From NCBI RefSeq assembly GCF_020169415.1, contig NZ_JAIULG010000008.1, forward strand, positions 1-64,000: a DNA stretch of 64,000 nt. Direction: 5' to 3'. The notes below the pieces were generated by a model that was given only the letters and a program-made list of their open reading frames with translations, ran no database searches and was not told the DNA's origin. A program made the position numbers and the translations under genes. The stretch's first letter is position 1. Each line of letters opens with the position of its first letter. This DNA comes from Tsukamurella sp. M9C (GTDB taxonomy: Bacteria; Actinomycetota; Actinomycetes; Mycobacteriales; Mycobacteriaceae). Shown piece after piece: positions 15,507-21,509 of the stretch.

Positions 15507-15517
15507 CGACGCAGGTC

Positions 15518-15586
15518 ATGAGTGCCAGCGACAAGCCCCGGCTCGCTGGTCGGCAACCCTCCTCCGCGGTGGGGTGCTCCGGGTGA
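15518..15586 (+). CDS. Candidate mini-ORF upstream of the desulfurase-like gene (22 aa)
   Basis: ATG 15518 to TGA 15584-15586 encodes 22 residues, starting MSASDKPRLAGR and ending AVGCSG. It lies 11 bases after a weak -10 (CATTCT), slightly more than the usual leaderless spacing. It is listed because the same promoter module at 39.27 kb drives a clear Cys-rich leaderless ORF. Only one Cys codon is present, so a cysteine-sensing role is much less certain here. Confidence 0.25.
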   Translation: MSASDKPRLAGRQPSSAVGCSG

Positions 15587-15678
15587 CGACCTGGCCGCAC
15601 CGAACGAGTGCGGCAAGCGCGGATTCGCGGCACGTCGGAAACGGGTGCCGTGCGTCCTCATACCGAAGGACATCTCTC

Positions 15679-16962
15679 ATGAGCATCGCCACCACCGAGC
15701 GCACCGCCGTCTGCCTGACCCCGACCGTCCGCAGCACGCCGCTGTCGCTGGGCCCCCTCGCCGCCGTGACCGGCGCCGACGAGTACGCCCCGCTCACCGA
15801 CGGCGCGACGGTCCGCTACGCCAACTTCGACTACGCCGCGAGCGCGCCGGCCCTGGTCGAGGTGCAGCAGGCGGTCCAGGAGGCGCTGGGCGAGTACGCG
15901 AGCGTGCACCGCGGCGCCGGCTACCTCTCGCAGCGCTCCACCTCCCGCTACGAGCGGGCCCGCGAGGTCGTCGCCGAGTTCGTGGGCGCCCGCGCCGACG
16001 ACCACGTGATCTTCACCGGCAACACCACCGACTCGATCAACCTGCTCGCGGGCTGCGTCCCCGGCGAGGTCGTGGTCCTCGACTGCGAGCACCACGCGAA
16101 CCTGCTGCCGTGGAAGCGGATCGGGGCCCGCGTGATCTCCGCTCCGCTGTCGATCGAGGGCACCCTCGAGGTGCTCGAGAAGGAGCTCCGCGCGCGCCCC
16201 GCGGCCCTGGTCAGCGTGACCGGCGCGTCCAACGTCACCGGCGAGGTGCTGCCGATCCGCCGGCTCGCCGCGCTCGCCCATCGGCACGGCGCGCGCATCG
16301 CGGTCGACGGTGCCCAGCTGGTCCCGCACCGTCGGATCTCGCTGCGCGAGAGCGGCGTCGACTACCTCGCCTTCTCGGGGCACAAGCTGTACGCGCCCTT
16401 CGGCTCCGGCGTGCTCGTCGGCCGCGCCGACTGGTTCGACGAGGCCGAGCCCGTCCGCTGCGGCGGCGGCGCCAGCTACGAGGTGATCGGCACGCCCGTC
16501 TCGAAGTCCGTCGAGGTCGCCTGGCACATCGGCCCCGCGCGGCACGAGGCCGGTTCGCCCAACGTCCTGGGCGCGGTCGCCATCGCCGCCGCGTGCGAGG
16601 CCATCGAGCGCCTCGGCGAGGACGCCATCGCCCGGCACGAGCGCTTCCTCACCGACCTGCTGCTGCGTTCGCTCGAGGGCATCGACGGTGTCCGCACGCT
16701 GAAGATCTGGGCCGACTCCACCGAGCGGGTGGGCATCGTCGCCTTCACCGTGGACGGCCGCACGCCCCGCGAGGTCGCCGAGTTCCTCTCGTCCGAGCAC
16801 GGGATCGGCGTGCGCGACGGGAAGTTCTGCGCCCACCCCGTCGTTAACCGATTGGGATGCTACGACGGCGCCGTCCGCGCGAGCATCGGCCTCGGCACGA
16901 GCGAGCACGACGTGCGCCGCCTGGCGCGCGCCCTCGAAGACCTGTCCGCACGAGCGAACTGA
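15679..16962 (+). CDS. Cysteine-desulfurase-like PLP aminotransferase (class V)
   Basis: A 427-residue fold-type I PLP protein of the class V/NifS-like group. It has YANFDYAASAPAL at the N terminus, ASVHRGAGYLSQRST (about residues 76-90), DCEHHANLLPW (about 137-147), the DGAQLVPHR cofactor Asp segment (about 212-220), the Schiff-base Lys in FSGHKLYAPFGSG (Lys about 236) and GKFCAHPVVNRL near the C terminus, in the position of the catalytic Cys loop. It could release sulfur from cysteine or a related compound; the true substrate is unknown. ATG 15679 follows a 210-base leader carrying a promoter module shared with another sulfur gene. The next gene starts 15 bases after its stop. Confidence 0.8.
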   Translation: MSIATTERTAVCLTPTVRSTPLSLGPLAAVTGADEYAPLTDGATVRYANFDYAASAPALVEVQQAVQEALGEYASVHRGAGYLSQRSTSRYERAREVVAEFVGARADDHVIFTGNTTDSINLLAGCVPGEVVVLDCEHHANLLPWKRIGARVISAPLSIEGTLEVLEKELRARPAALVSVTGASNVTGEVLPIRRLAALAHRHGARIAVDGAQLVPHRRISLRESGVDYLAFSGHKLYAPFGSGVLVGRADWFDEAEPVRCGGGASYEVIGTPVSKSVEVAWHIGPARHEAGSPNVLGAVAIAAACEAIERLGEDAIARHERFLTDLLLRSLEGIDGVRTLKIWADSTERVGIVAFTVDGRTPREVAEFLSSEHGIGVRDGKFCAHPVVNRLGCYDGAVRASIGLGTSEHDVRRLARALEDLSARAN

Positions 16963-17386: not shown

Positions 17387-17869
17387 GTGACCGAGCAGTA
17401 CTCCGCCCGCACCGAGACCGTCCGCGCGGCCCTGGCCGCCGCGGGGCACCCGGACACCGTCCGCCTGGTGCCGGACGGTGCCAAGACCGCCGCGGAGGCC
17501 GCGGCGGCGCTCGGCTGCGAGGTGGGCGCGATCGCCAACAGCCTCGTCTTCCTGGCCGACGGTGCGCCGCTGCTCGTCCTCTCGAGCGGGCGGCACCGCG
17601 TGGACACCGACGGCCTCGCCACTCGACTCGGCTACGGCGCGATCACCCGCGCGAAGCCGGACGACGTGGCCGCCGCGACCGGCCAGGTCATCGGCGGCGT
17701 CTCGCCCGTCGGGCATCCGCGGCCGGTGGTCACCGTCATCGACGAGTCGCTCGCCGGCTATCCGGACCTGTACGCCGCGGCCGGGACGCACGACACGATC
17801 TTCCGCACCGACTTCGCCGCGCTCGTGGCGCTCACGGGTGCCAGAATCGTCACGACATCGGCGGCATAG
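17387..17869 (+). CDS. ybaK: YbaK/EbsC-type aminoacyl-tRNA deacylase
   Basis: A 160-residue single-domain protein of the YbaK/ProX family, which hydrolyses mischarged tRNAs (Cys-tRNAPro in the best-known members). The family features are the KTAAEAAAALGCEVGAIANSLVF segment (Lys and the cleft, about residues 33-55), LSSGRHRVD and the GGVSPVGHP loop (about 103-111) that shapes the active site. GTG 17387 follows CATACT by seven bases, a leaderless-type promoter. The gene lies between the desulfurase-like operon and the MarR gene in the same direction. Confidence 0.87.
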   Translation: MTEQYSARTETVRAALAAAGHPDTVRLVPDGAKTAAEAAAALGCEVGAIANSLVFLADGAPLLVLSSGRHRVDTDGLATRLGYGAITRAKPDDVAAATGQVIGGVSPVGHPRPVVTVIDESLAGYPDLYAAAGTHDTIFRTDFAALVALTGARIVTTSAA

Positions 17870-17926: not shown

Positions 17927-17973
17927 CATGTCCGAACACGGCGACGTGGGCGGACGGGACCTGCGGAGGCGTG

Positions 17974-18450
17974 ATGACGGACGAGGAACGGGCGGACCGG
18001 ATCGAGGGGATCGTCGGCGTGATCGCCGAGCTCACCCGGCTCAAGGAGCGGCACGCCGTGATGACGCGGCACGCGGTCGCGCCGGACGGCGTCGAACTGG
18101 CGGCGTACACCGCGCTCTTCGCCCTGGTGAAGGGCGGGCCCATGCGCTCGTCCGTGCTCGCGGACCAGATCCACACCGACCCGTCCACCGCGAGCCGGTA
18201 CGTGACCACCCTGACCAACCTGGGCTACGCCGAGCGCACCGCCGATCCCTCGGATCGCCGGGCGGCGCTCGTCTCCGCGACGGAGGCGGGGGAGGCCAAG
18301 GTCGAGTTCATCCGGCAGCAGCGCAACGAGAAGCTCCGGCCCCTCATGGAGCAGTGGACCGACGAGGAGATCGACCAGTTCGTGACGCTCGGGAACCGGG
18401 CGCTGGTGCAGTTCGAGCAGGCCCTCAAGCTGATGCGGGAAGGCGAGTGA
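17974..18450 (+). CDS. MarR-family transcriptional regulator
   Basis: A 158-residue winged-helix regulator of the MarR family. DNA-binding part: ALVKGGPMRSSVLADQIHTDPSTASRYVTTLTNLGYAERTADPSDRRAALVSATEAGE (about residues 48-105), with the DPSDRRA wing typical of the family; flanking helices form the dimer. GGAGG lies upstream of ATG 17974 (GTG 17971 is possible). Its stop overlaps the GTG start of the transporter gene (GTGA), so the two are translationally coupled and the transporter is the likely regulated target. Confidence 0.9.
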   Translation: MTDEERADRIEGIVGVIAELTRLKERHAVMTRHAVAPDGVELAAYTALFALVKGGPMRSSVLADQIHTDPSTASRYVTTLTNLGYAERTADPSDRRAALVSATEAGEAKVEFIRQQRNEKLRPLMEQWTDEEIDQFVTLGNRALVQFEQALKLMREGE

Positions 18451-21400
18451 CCGCCGCGACGGTCCAGCAGGAGGAGACCGCGGGCGCGGGCCTCACGCAC
18501 AAGCAGATCCTCTACATCCTGTCGGGGCTCATGACCGGCATGTTCCTGGCCGCGCTCGACCAGACGATCGTCTCCACCGCGATCCGGACCATCGCGGACG
18601 ATCTCAACGGCTACAAGCTGCAGGCGTGGGTCACCACGGCGTACCTCATCACCTCGACGATCGTCACCCCGCTGTACGGCAAGCTGTCGGACATCTACGG
18701 GCGCAAGCCCTTCTTCATGTTCGCCATCACGGTCTTCGTGATCGGCTCCCTGCTGTGCAGCACGGCCACGTCGATGTACGAGCTGGCCGCCTTCCGCGCG
18801 GTCCAGGGCCTCGGCGCCGGCGGCCTGATGTCGCTGGCGCTCACCATCATCGGCGACATCGTGCCGCCCCGCGAGCGCGCCAAGTACCAGGGCTACTTCC
18901 TCGCCGTGTTCGGCACCAGCTCGGTGCTCGGCCCCGTGCTCGGCGGCCTGTTCTCGGGCGCCGACAACATCCTCGGCATCGCCGGCTGGCGCTGGGTCTT
19001 CCTGGTGAACGTGCCGATCGGCATCGTCGCGCTCGCCGTCGTCTCCCGCGTGCTGCGCCTGCCGCACACCCGCCGCGAGGGCGTCCGCATCGACTGGTTC
19101 GGCGCGGTCGCGCTGTCCGTCGGCCTGGTCCCGCTGCTCATCGTCGCCGAGCAGGGCCAGGAGTGGGGCTGGGGCTCGACGCGGGCCATCGCCTGCTACG
19201 CCATCGGTGCGGTCGGCGTCGTCGCGTTCATCGCCATCGAGAAGTACATGGGCGAGGACGCGATCATCCCGCTGCGCATCTTCAAGAACGTCATCTTCGC
19301 GCAGGGCGTGCTCATCTCGATGGTCGTGGGCGCCGCGATGTTCGGCGGGATCTCGCTGCTTCCCCAGTACTTCCAGGTGGTCCGCGGCGCCAGCCCGACG
19401 AAGGCGGGCTTCCTCATGCTGCCGATGGTCGCGGGCCTCATGCTCGGCTCGATCCTGGCCGGCCAGGTGATCTCCCGCACCGGCCGCTACCGCGTCTTCC
19501 CGATCATCGGCGCGGTACTGCTCACCGCGGGCATGTTCGGCATGCACTACATCAGCGCGGACGTGCAGATCGGCTACGTCATGGCGGGTGCGGCCGTGAT
19601 CGGCTTCGGCCTCGGCAACCTGATGCAGCCGCTCACCCTGGCGCTGCAGAACATCCTGCCGCCGCGCGACATGGGCGTCTCCACCGCCGCCGCGACCTTC
19701 TTCCGCCAGATCGGCGGCACGCTGGGCGTCGCGGTCTTCCTCTCCGTGCTGTTCTCGCAGATGCCGCACAAGATGAGCAGCCGCATGACCGATGCGGCCG
19801 CGGACCCCGAGTACACGGCCGCCGTCCAGCGCGCCGCCGCCGGCCACGACGGCCCGGCCGCGCAGGACTTCGCCACGAAGCTCGTGCACGGCGATTCCAG
19901 CGCCGTCAGCGACGTCATGTCCGACACCTCCGCGCTGCAGAAGCTGCCCGACACCCTGGTGCACCCGCTCAAGGCCGGGTTCGCCGACTCCATGGACGTG
20001 GTCTTCCTCGCCGTCACCGTGCTGGCGGCGATAGGCCTGGTCCTCGTACTGTTCTGGAAGGCGGTGCCCCTGCGCACCGCCCCGGCCATCGAGGCGACCA
20101 CCCCAGAGGCCGGCGCCGCCGCGACGCCTGACAGCATCGAGACCGCGGAGATCAGCGCCGCCGCGGCATCCGTGGCGGGCACAGCAGCGACGGAGGAGAT
20201 CGTGACCGAACCGCCCACCGGCCCCGTCCCCACACCGCCCACGCCCGCGCAGGCCGCGGCCTCCCGCTCCGAGATCGACGAGCTCCGGGCCCAGAACGCC
20301 TCGCTCGCCGCCGAACTCGCCGAGCTGCGCACCGGCTACCGGGCGATCGCCGGCAACACCCGGCTGCGCGCCTCCGGCACCACCGACTCCGTGCGCTTCG
20401 CCGTCGAAGCCACCGGTCCCGGCGGGGCCCGATCGGGCCGGATGGTGCTGCCCCGCGGCGAGATCGCCACGCCCGCCTACGTGCCGGTGGCGAGCCGCGG
20501 CGCGATCGCCGGCCTCACCCCGCGCGAGCTGACCGACCTCGGCGCCGCGGCGCTGACCGTCGACCTGCACGAGCTGTACCTGCAGCCCGGTGTCGACGTC
20601 ATCGAGGGCGCCGGCGGCATCGGCGCCGCCATGGCCTGGGCGGCACCCACGATCGCCGACACCGGCGTCGCCGCCGTCGCGGAGCAGCGCAAGACGCGGA
20701 TCACCGACGAGGGCATCGCCTTCCGCGGCCGCCTCGACGGCTCGCCGCACCGCTGGGACCCCGAGGAGACGGTCCGCCTCGCGCACCGCATGGGCTTCGA
20801 CGTCGCCTTCGCCCTCGCCGACGCGGAGGACCCCGCGCGCACCGAGCGCTGGGCCCGCCGGGCGCTCGCCGAGCACGCCTGGCAGACCGCGGACCGGCAC
20901 GACGCCCTCTCGCTCTGGGCCGTGGTGACCGGCGGCGCGGATCCCGAGCGTCGACGGTCCGCGGCCCGCGCACTGCGCAGGCTCGCGGACGAGGACCGGC
21001 GGGCCGGCGGACTGGGCTTCGGCGGCTACCGGATCGAGGGCGTCGGTGCCCCCGCCCACGAGACCGCGCTGCTGCGCGCCGTCGTCGGCGAGCTCGAGAC
21101 GGACCGTCCGCGCTACCTCGGCGGCATCACCGGCCCGGCGGATCTGCTGGCCGCGATCGAGGCGGGCGTGGACCTGCTCGACGGTACCGAGCCCGCGCGG
21201 GCCGGCGCCGAGGGCCGCGTCTACACCTCGACGGGCGTCCTCGACGTCACCGATCCCGCGCTGCGCGCGGACTTCCGGCCGCTCGATCCCGCCGAGGGGC
21301 GCCCGGGCGGGCCCAACCGGACGGACGCCTTCACCCGCGCCTACGTGCACCACCTCTTCGCCGCGAACGAGGGCCTCGCCGTGACGCTGTGCACCCTGCA

Positions 21401-21509
21401 CAACGAGCACTTCTTCGTGTCCCTCGCCGCGGCCGCGCGCCGCGCGATCCGCGACGGGGGTTACCCGGCCTTCACCGCGTCGTTCCTGCGGCGGTTCGGT
21501 AAGGTCTAG
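18447..21509 (+). CDS. MFS efflux transporter fused in frame to a tRNA-guanine transglycosylase-like domain
   Basis: A single 1020-codon frame. Residues about 15-545 are a 14-helix EmrB/QacA transporter (DQTIVSTAIRTIADDL, GKLSDIYGRKPFF, GLGAGGLMSLALTIIGDIVP). A Pro/Ala linker and short coiled coil (about 605-635) lead to residues about 640-1020, which align by eye along the whole of bacterial Tgt. Asp738 in TIADTG and Asp912 in VDLLDGTEPAR match the two catalytic aspartates, and RAYVHHL and TLHN (His985) match the end of the fold. The CxCxxC zinc cysteines are absent and the FDE substrate Asp is altered, so ordinary tRNA base exchange is doubtful. GTG 18447 overlaps the marR stop. An in-frame GTG at 20202, preceded by GGAGGAG, could start a separate TGT-like protein. 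A queuine- or purine-analogue-linked transport role is speculative. Confidence 0.8.
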   Translation: MTAATVQQEETAGAGLTHKQILYILSGLMTGMFLAALDQTIVSTAIRTIADDLNGYKLQAWVTTAYLITSTIVTPLYGKLSDIYGRKPFFMFAITVFVIGSLLCSTATSMYELAAFRAVQGLGAGGLMSLALTIIGDIVPPRERAKYQGYFLAVFGTSSVLGPVLGGLFSGADNILGIAGWRWVFLVNVPIGIVALAVVSRVLRLPHTRREGVRIDWFGAVALSVGLVPLLIVAEQGQEWGWGSTRAIACYAIGAVGVVAFIAIEKYMGEDAIIPLRIFKNVIFAQGVLISMVVGAAMFGGISLLPQYFQVVRGASPTKAGFLMLPMVAGLMLGSILAGQVISRTGRYRVFPIIGAVLLTAGMFGMHYISADVQIGYVMAGAAVIGFGLGNLMQPLTLALQNILPPRDMGVSTAAATFFRQIGGTLGVAVFLSVLFSQMPHKMSSRMTDAAADPEYTAAVQRAAAGHDGPAAQDFATKLVHGDSSAVSDVMSDTSALQKLPDTLVHPLKAGFADSMDVVFLAVTVLAAIGLVLVLFWKAVPLRTAPAIEATTPEAGAAATPDSIETAEISAAAASVAGTAATEEIVTEPPTGPVPTPPTPAQAAASRSEIDELRAQNASLAAELAELRTGYRAIAGNTRLRASGTTDSVRFAVEATGPGGARSGRMVLPRGEIATPAYVPVASRGAIAGLTPRELTDLGAAALTVDLHELYLQPGVDVIEGAGGIGAAMAWAAPTIADTGVAAVAEQRKTRITDEGIAFRGRLDGSPHRWDPEETVRLAHRMGFDVAFALADAEDPARTERWARRALAEHAWQTADRHDALSLWAVVTGGADPERRRSAARALRRLADEDRRAGGLGFGGYRIEGVGAPAHETALLRAVVGELETDRPRYLGGITGPADLLAAIEAGVDLLDGTEPARAGAEGRVYTSTGVLDVTDPALRADFRPLDPAEGRPGGPNRTDAFTRAYVHHLFAANEGLAVTLCTLHNEHFFVSLAAAARRAIRDGGYPAFTASFLRRFGKV

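Follow-up and report, generated by a model that had tools for sequence, protein, structure and literature searches.

A DHA2-type exporter fused to a leucine zipper and a TGT-derived domain without base-recognition residues in Tsukamurella

Results

A stretch of 64,000 nucleotides from Tsukamurella sp. M9C (Mycobacteriaceae; contig NZ_JAIULG010000008.1, positions 1 to 64,000, hereafter the window) was analyzed, in which a single frame without inner stops (18447-21509, + strand) encodes a protein of 1020 amino acids composed of a DHA2 major facilitator superfamily (MFS) exporter, a linker, a leucine zipper and a domain derived from tRNA-guanine transglycosylase (TGT). The Pfam scan of this protein placed MFS_1 at residues 28-427 (172 bits) and the TGT family PF01702 at residues 660-1017 (227.3-230.6 bits against a cut-off of 26.3), in agreement with an initial annotation made from the sequence, which had described an EmrB-type transporter followed in one frame by a full-length TGT-like domain. 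The EmrB/DHA2 efflux domain (18516-20054, +) reached 267.3 bits with the NCBIfam model TIGR00711 (DHA2/EmrB exporters, cut-off 230.2), and the top raw scores of the MFS part were those for OtrB and Tcr3, each under its own cut-off. By these profile matches the MFS part is a DHA2 exporter, for which drug export is predicted. The TGT-derived domain (20424-21497, +) passed the NCBIfam TGT superfamily model TIGR00449 (188.6 bits, cut-off 47.6) and stayed below the cut-off of the Tgt equivalog model TIGR00430 (195.6 bits, cut-off 306.75). This part was also matched by 55 distinct PDB sequences (best E 7.3e-49). The QPTR domain PF02592 was not among the seven Pfam families listed for the fusion protein.

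The two domains are joined by a linker of low conservation (20124-20267, +) and a four-heptad leucine zipper (20274-20348, +; positions a: I, N, L, Y; positions d: L, L, L, I). In the linker, pairwise ratios of non-synonymous to synonymous substitution (dN/dS) ranged from 0.07 to 1.17, and identity was 0.39 to the copy of genome G008 and 0.24 to the copy G010a. The GTG at 20202 preceded by GGAGGAG (20192-20198), pointed out earlier as a possible internal start, is present there; the same combination was found in 8 of the 14 fused loci including the window, with GGAGGAC in one more, and was missing from the other five. The protein ends with a C-terminal TGT segment (residues 963-1019; 21333-21503, +) that contains the RAYVHHL helix of the dimer interface.

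The window-type frame was intact in 14 of 16 Tsukamurella genomes and, therefore, a sequencing error or frameshift was ruled out as the source of the fusion. The exceptions were G009, without the MFS part, and G011 (890 contigs), in which the frame was not found. When only the TGT part was compared, the most similar sequences found among named organisms were those of Tsukamurella ocularis (97%), T. sputi (86%), T. spumae (81%) and Tsukamurella sp. PLM1 (73%). A T. tyrosinosolvens record was 96.9% identical over the same part and carries a fused frame of 1048 residues covering residues 1-1020 of the query, although its incomplete gene table lists the TGT part only.

The genome search detected three TGT genes in the genome of the window. 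The gene on contig C28 (locus L073) encodes a fusion of MMPL and TGT with about 1440 residues, the only one in this genome that passed the Tgt equivalog cut-off (375.3 against 306.75 bits), and that on contig C31 is a degenerate copy truncated where the contig ends. The C28 type (MMPL1) was matched in all 16 genomes of the genus, in one of them partially at a contig end; its linkage in one frame was verified in six (G000, G004, G006, G008, G010, and G012), its MMPL and TGT parts lay in different frames in G009, and in the remaining genomes the linkage was judged by frame length. A second, more degenerate MMPL-linked TGT (MMPL2) occurred in 8/16 genomes, its MMPL part being confirmed by Pfam in G005 and not visible in the window's genome. 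Another DHA2 protein with the zipper-TGT module was found in G007 and a third in G010. A protein similar to the latter (G010b), with the zipper and the start of the TGT domain, is encoded at L105 (G011, contig C358) and cut by the contig end; the frame adjoining it resembles, by eye, a PadR-type regulator. The module was, in all, present on five backbones, namely MMPL1, MMPL2 and three DHA2-type MFS proteins, with 25-30% identity among the three MFS parts and about 41% between the two MMPL parts.

Regarding queuosine, QueA was detected in none of the 16 genomes and in 9 of 14 control genomes, QueC, QueD, QueE, QueF, QueG, and QueH being outside this search. The QPTR family (PF02592) was present as a separate gene in 16/16, as was GluQRS above its cut-off, which in 15 genomes lay no more than 2.5 kb away from the C28-type TGT and in G012 was on a different contig. 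Since QPTR and GluQRS are present and QueA is absent, the genus probably salvages queuine. Its working Tgt looks like the membrane-bound MMPL1-TGT, which would be the active enzyme.

The residues of the TGT domain were compared with 18 canonical TGTs (7 MMPL1 and 11 stand-alone, two of the latter from other phyla), among which 100 columns were invariant. The clade of the window's domain comprised 15 rows (13 window-type fusions, G007b and the PLM1 copy without MFS), with G010a and G010b left out. The residue alignment, the tree and this tally did not include the MMPL1 copy of G011, which is truncated at a contig end, and the Gly229/Gly230 columns, misaligned for the family rows, were not counted. 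Across the 15 rows, 51 invariant columns were kept in all, 27 were lost in all and 22 were mixed. Ten of the 14 invariant residues in the Asp102-loop segment were lost in every row, and 13 of 14 in the C-terminal segment were kept in every row, with none lost in all (Fisher p of 0.0002 and 0.0009, respectively, for segments drawn after viewing the alignment). For MMPL2, 31 of the 100 columns were kept in all eight rows.

Positions 106, 156, 203, and 230 and the zinc ligands (three Cys and a His) are given in what we take to be the usual numbering. In Tgt, Asp102 and Asp280 are catalytic, and Phe92, Trp326, Tyr330, and His333 constitute a hot spot of the dimer interface (PMC5395182). Asp738 and Asp912 aligned with the two catalytic residues and were kept in 15/15 rows, as the initial annotation had stated. 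G010a and G010b had Glu and Asn at position 102, respectively, and kept Asp280, and the nucleophile position was Glu in 7 of the 8 MMPL2 rows. The base-reading residues were altered in all 15 rows: Asp156, the substrate-binding aspartate already noted as changed, was replaced by Ala, Gln203 by Thr or Ala, and Phe106 fell in a gap, the pocket loop with Phe106 and Gln107 being deleted throughout the clade. G010a was intermediate, with Glu at 102, Asp156 kept and Gln203 replaced by Gly. The window's TGT is thus predicted to be devoid of base recognition, with exchange at Q34 and the reading of guanine or 7-deazaguanine lost, and to be catalytically inactive. On the interface side, Tyr330 and His333 were kept in all 17 rows labelled MFS, and the Trp326 position was Phe in 15 of them, Tyr in G010a and Pro in G010b.

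At the zinc site of the window's TGT, His985 was kept and the three cysteines were absent. This loss, claimed in the initial annotation, was correct but not specific to the fusion: the cysteines were also absent from nine stand-alone TGTs of the family and eight MMPL1-type rows, and present in the two rows from other phyla. The nine stand-alone proteins (L057, L058, L062, L064, L066, and L068-L071) kept their base-reading and catalytic residues, for which reason a Tgt without zinc cysteines seems to be ancestral in the family.

The zipper lies directly before the TGT domain, with its four heptads in one register across the scanned tails that reach it. Position a was I/L, N, L and Y, position d mainly L, I or M, and position e R, A/V and R with one Lys. 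An Asn in the core, at position a, is characteristic of zippers that form parallel dimers. The zipper was found in all 32 scanned tails that reach the site (33 scanned), on five backbones, and in none of the 11 stand-alone TGTs; the MMPL1 tail of G011 ends before the site, and the scan did not extend to the MMPL1 tails of eight further genomes or the C358 tail of G011. Elsewhere in the window's genome, the next match had an E of 0.15. Between paralogues the zipper was 45-54% identical, a value not above that of the TGT domain, and its constant part was the register. No charge pattern at positions e and g that would be expected to stop paralogues from pairing was apparent, and in degenerate copies the zipper was mostly the best-conserved part.

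Selection was estimated by pairwise NG86 dN/dS against the window's copy, in 14 MFS-type pairs for the zipper and the TGT part, and segment-wise without rows G004 and G014. In 13 of these pairs the TGT part gave 0.08-0.45 and the zipper (25 codons) 0-0.21, with 0.68 and 0.50, respectively, for the distant G010a. The zipper value was the lower one in 12 of the 14 pairs (it was higher in G015 and equal to two decimals in G003) and in 7/7 MMPL2 pairs, and in only 3 of 6 pairs for the intact MMPL1-TGT of six other genomes. By these ratios, the module is under purifying selection.

Two natural deletions were found. In Tsukamurella sp. PLM1 (L008/L084), a zipper-TGT frame with its own ATG comes after the MarR gene, and the MFS part is missing. 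This genome is 83% complete and has its MMPL1 and TGT parts in different frames and, therefore, an assembly error is possible as well as a real deletion. In T. tyrosinosolvens NCTC13231 (L133, 1232-5080), a shortened MMPL2-TGT gene, whose zipper-TGT part stays open, is immediately preceded by an ISL3-type transposase; G015 has a frame of 840 residues, the same length as this shortened gene.

Stand-alone forms of the parts of the fusion were also analyzed outside the genus. MFS orthologues with near-full-length matches and 55-70% identity occurred in 36 of 58 other genomes of the family. Among 21 stand-alone MFS loci fetched from other genera, a MarR match lay upstream in 19 and a TGT match in none, which suggests that MarR-MFS is the older unit and that the tail was added later. 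A tree built on 43 TGT rows grouped MFS and MMPL2 together (25 rows, support 100/96), apart from the stand-alone and MMPL1 rows. The MFS rows did not form one group, since G010a and G010b stood apart, and G010a was the first branch of the MFS/MMPL2 half in the midpoint-rooted drawing; according to a warning of the tree tool, the joining of MMPL2 with G010b may be false. An MMPL gene was found directly upstream of tgt on the same strand in 8/16 stand-alone loci of the family (1.5-kb flanks). A merger of neighboring MMPL and tgt genes is probably the simplest origin of MMPL-TGT, although the pair is not general.

Outside the genus, further fusions were rejected, as none of the TGT frames of 29 loci (16 loci and 13 long-frame loci, among the matches listed for 201 genomes) contained an MFS or MMPL match; the long frames look, for the same reason, like read-through of GC-rich DNA. 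One of them, L135 (1578-4775, +) of another genus, is a frame of 1066 residues with TGT at 654-1061, and its first approximately 650 residues matched none of the transporter queries used.

Upstream of the fusion gene, a MarR-family regulator (17971-18450, +; Pfam MarR_2/MarR above cut-off) overlaps the start at 18447 by four bases, an overlap being already mentioned in the initial annotation. MarR was likewise matched in front of every other intact fused locus (13 loci) and in front of the PLM1 zipper-TGT frame. The preceding gene (17387-17869, +) encodes a YbaK-type aminoacyl-tRNA editing domain; twelve of these 13 loci (all but L079) and PLM1 also had a YbaK match, which was found at 0/21 stand-alone MFS loci within 1.5-kb flanks. 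No preQ1 riboswitch reached the gathering score near the fusion, the only RNA elements found being a tRNA (at L073) and, in the window, a SAM-IV riboswitch (15514-15625, +; 109 bits, gathering score 38). The latter lies at the start of ORF 15574-16962, a SufS-like class-V aminotransferase under the SufS cut-off (profile run on 15679-16959).

Discussion

The initial annotation knew of no described protein joining these families. In fact, the MFS-TGT fusion is already known, having been in print since 2024: Quaiyum et al. (2024; PMC11130926) reported three transporter domains fused with bacterial TGT (QPTR, MFS, and MMPL), listed the Tsukamurella MFS-TGT and MMPL-TGT fusions as candidate queuosine-precursor transporters, and gave Tpau_0550 and Tpau_4044 as MFS and MMPL examples "unique to different Tsukamurella species." The window's gene shares the genus and the two domains with these fusions, itself being a Tsukamurella MFS-TGT; the likeness is one of genus and domains, the sequence D5USC3 lying outside our alignment. 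The MFS and MMPL proteins tested by those authors include members from Bartonella and Corynebacterium (their Table 1); the Bartonella MFS transported preQ1 and the Corynebacterium MMPL did not complement. A literature search on Tsukamurella, TGT, MMPL and queuosine gave no second report of such fusions, the supplements of PMC11130926 being outside its scope. The portion of that account considered here contains nothing on lost TGT residues, the zipper or further backbones. Hence, the new elements are an MMPL-fused protein as the sole Tgt passing the cut-off, the loss of base recognition and a zipper shared by five backbones.

The following course of events would accommodate these results. In an ancestor of Tsukamurella, a DHA2 drug exporter controlled by MarR may have gained a C-terminal module of zipper and TGT, a copy taken from the lineage of the membrane-bound Tgt that the genus itself has, MMPL-TGT, which in turn probably arose from a neighboring MMPL-tgt gene pair. 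The window's TGT would be blind to the guanine or 7-deazaguanine base and, as the base is no longer recognized, would not insert queuine into tRNA. The module could have been retained for dimerization, through the zipper and the TGT interface on the cytoplasmic face, so that exporter subunits would be joined to one another and, since the paralogues share the zipper, probably also to the active MMPL-TGT, presumably to the benefit of the cell. That zipper and pseudo-TGT are a dimerization or docking module, joining exporters mutually or to the membrane-bound Tgt, is our preferred reading, although we hold it only tentatively. A wider version, in which the tail moved as a genus-wide plug-in to at least five exporter backbones, and drug and lipid exporters are assembled via zippers around the sole active Tgt, is doubtful.

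Several observations weigh against a dimerization or docking role. A pure scaffold would have no need of the two catalytic aspartates, which are nevertheless kept in every row of the clade. At the interface, Phe92 of the hot spot is Ala or Val in all 15 rows, the Trp326 position is non-aromatic in 7/8 MMPL2 rows, and the MMPL2 rows keep in common only 7 of the 14 C-terminal residues. Within the clade, the C-terminal dimer segment (residues 941-1019) does not stand out among the TGT segments by stronger constraint, its dN/dS of 0.07-0.23 in ten nearer usable pairs being mostly equal to or above that of the middle segment (0.04-0.15). The zipper pattern was defined with the alignment already in view, and the constraint on the zipper is a trend and not proof, because 25 codons are few and the pairs have one reference in common. 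Moreover, the MFS part in PLM1 and the MMPL2 part in T. tyrosinosolvens are lost or cut while zipper-TGT is kept and, thus, the module may not serve the transporter at all. As to the proposed origin, among 13 further stand-alone loci with long frames and longer flanks, MMPL lay upstream on the same strand in one and on the opposite strand in one.

The kept aspartates could also mean that the TGT-like domain is still an enzyme, which cuts and re-forms the glycosidic bond of another base or nucleic-acid substrate, and the low dN/dS of the TGT part in the 13 pairs without G010a, which in the majority of the nearer pairs is lowest for the middle segment, would fit this idea. However, the pocket loop is deleted, Asp156 and Gln203 are gone, no new set of pocket residues was identified, position 102 is Glu in G010a and Asn in G010b, and the nucleophile position is occupied by Glu in most MMPL2 rows; such an enzyme is unlikely. 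To much the same degree, it is unlikely that the domain is a passive passenger, in the sense of a duplicated tail which the cell tolerates while it gradually decays. Branches longer than those of the MMPL1-TGT rows, the strong decay in MMPL2 and the patchy presence of MMPL2 (8/16) and of the other MFS fusions point in this direction, but the frames are open, dN/dS is well below 1 in nearer pairs and the zipper has been spared.

A cytoplasmic sensor or regulator that gates the exporter upon binding tRNA or a metabolite would agree with the MarR control and with the maintenance of the fold. It would also agree with the cytoplasmic C-terminus that is expected for DHA2 proteins with 14 helices. 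Nevertheless, the normal ligand pocket is dismantled, one module is shared by five different backbones, MMPL among them, and in PLM1 it occurs without MFS, which makes a sensor quite improbable. Finally, the MFS part might import queuosine precursors and pass them to the TGT domain, as in the reading of PMC11130926. The existence of a transporter-TGT fusion as such, the transport of preQ1 by the Bartonella MFS and the lack of QueA, which would oblige the genus to salvage, speak for import. Yet this MFS belongs with the EmrB/OtrB exporters, other genera have its orthologues as unfused proteins accompanied by MarR, all 16 genomes have a QPTR gene, and the fused TGT is without base-reading residues, so import is very unlikely. 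The binding of a deazaguanine or queuine-like base during transport, suggested in the initial annotation, is likewise disfavored, because the 15 rows of the clade are all devoid of the base-reading residues, and because QPTR is encoded separately in the genus, as is a better-scoring Tgt. The window's fusion is, accordingly, poor evidence for MFS import of queuosine precursors, and the published lead is weakened.

These results suggest that a domain of a tRNA-modifying enzyme has been re-used in one genus as the tail of several exporters, having first lost base recognition, and that the working Tgt of this genus is membrane-bound. The shared zipper predicts the pairing of paralogues. If exporters did dock to MMPL-TGT, export would be physically linked, at the inner membrane, to the modification of the tRNA wobble position.

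Among the closest known systems is, besides the published fusions, bacterial Tgt (TIGR00430, PF01702; Zymomonas mobilis and Escherichia coli), with which the window's domain shares a full-length match, both catalytic aspartates and the RAYxHHL dimer helix, and from which it differs in remaining under the equivalog cut-off, in having lost the base-recognition residues and pocket loop, and in being fused to a membrane protein. With EmrB/OtrB-type DHA2 pumps regulated by MarR, the window's protein has in common an MFS part that passes TIGR00711 and a MarR-MFS pair, the latter present also at its stand-alone orthologues; it differs from them in the zipper-TGT tail. QTRT2, the non-catalytic partner of the eukaryotic TGT, is a paralogue that no longer performs the exchange and serves the dimer. 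It offers an analogy in the way of working only; in the present case, the catalytic aspartates are kept and the domain is fused to exporters.

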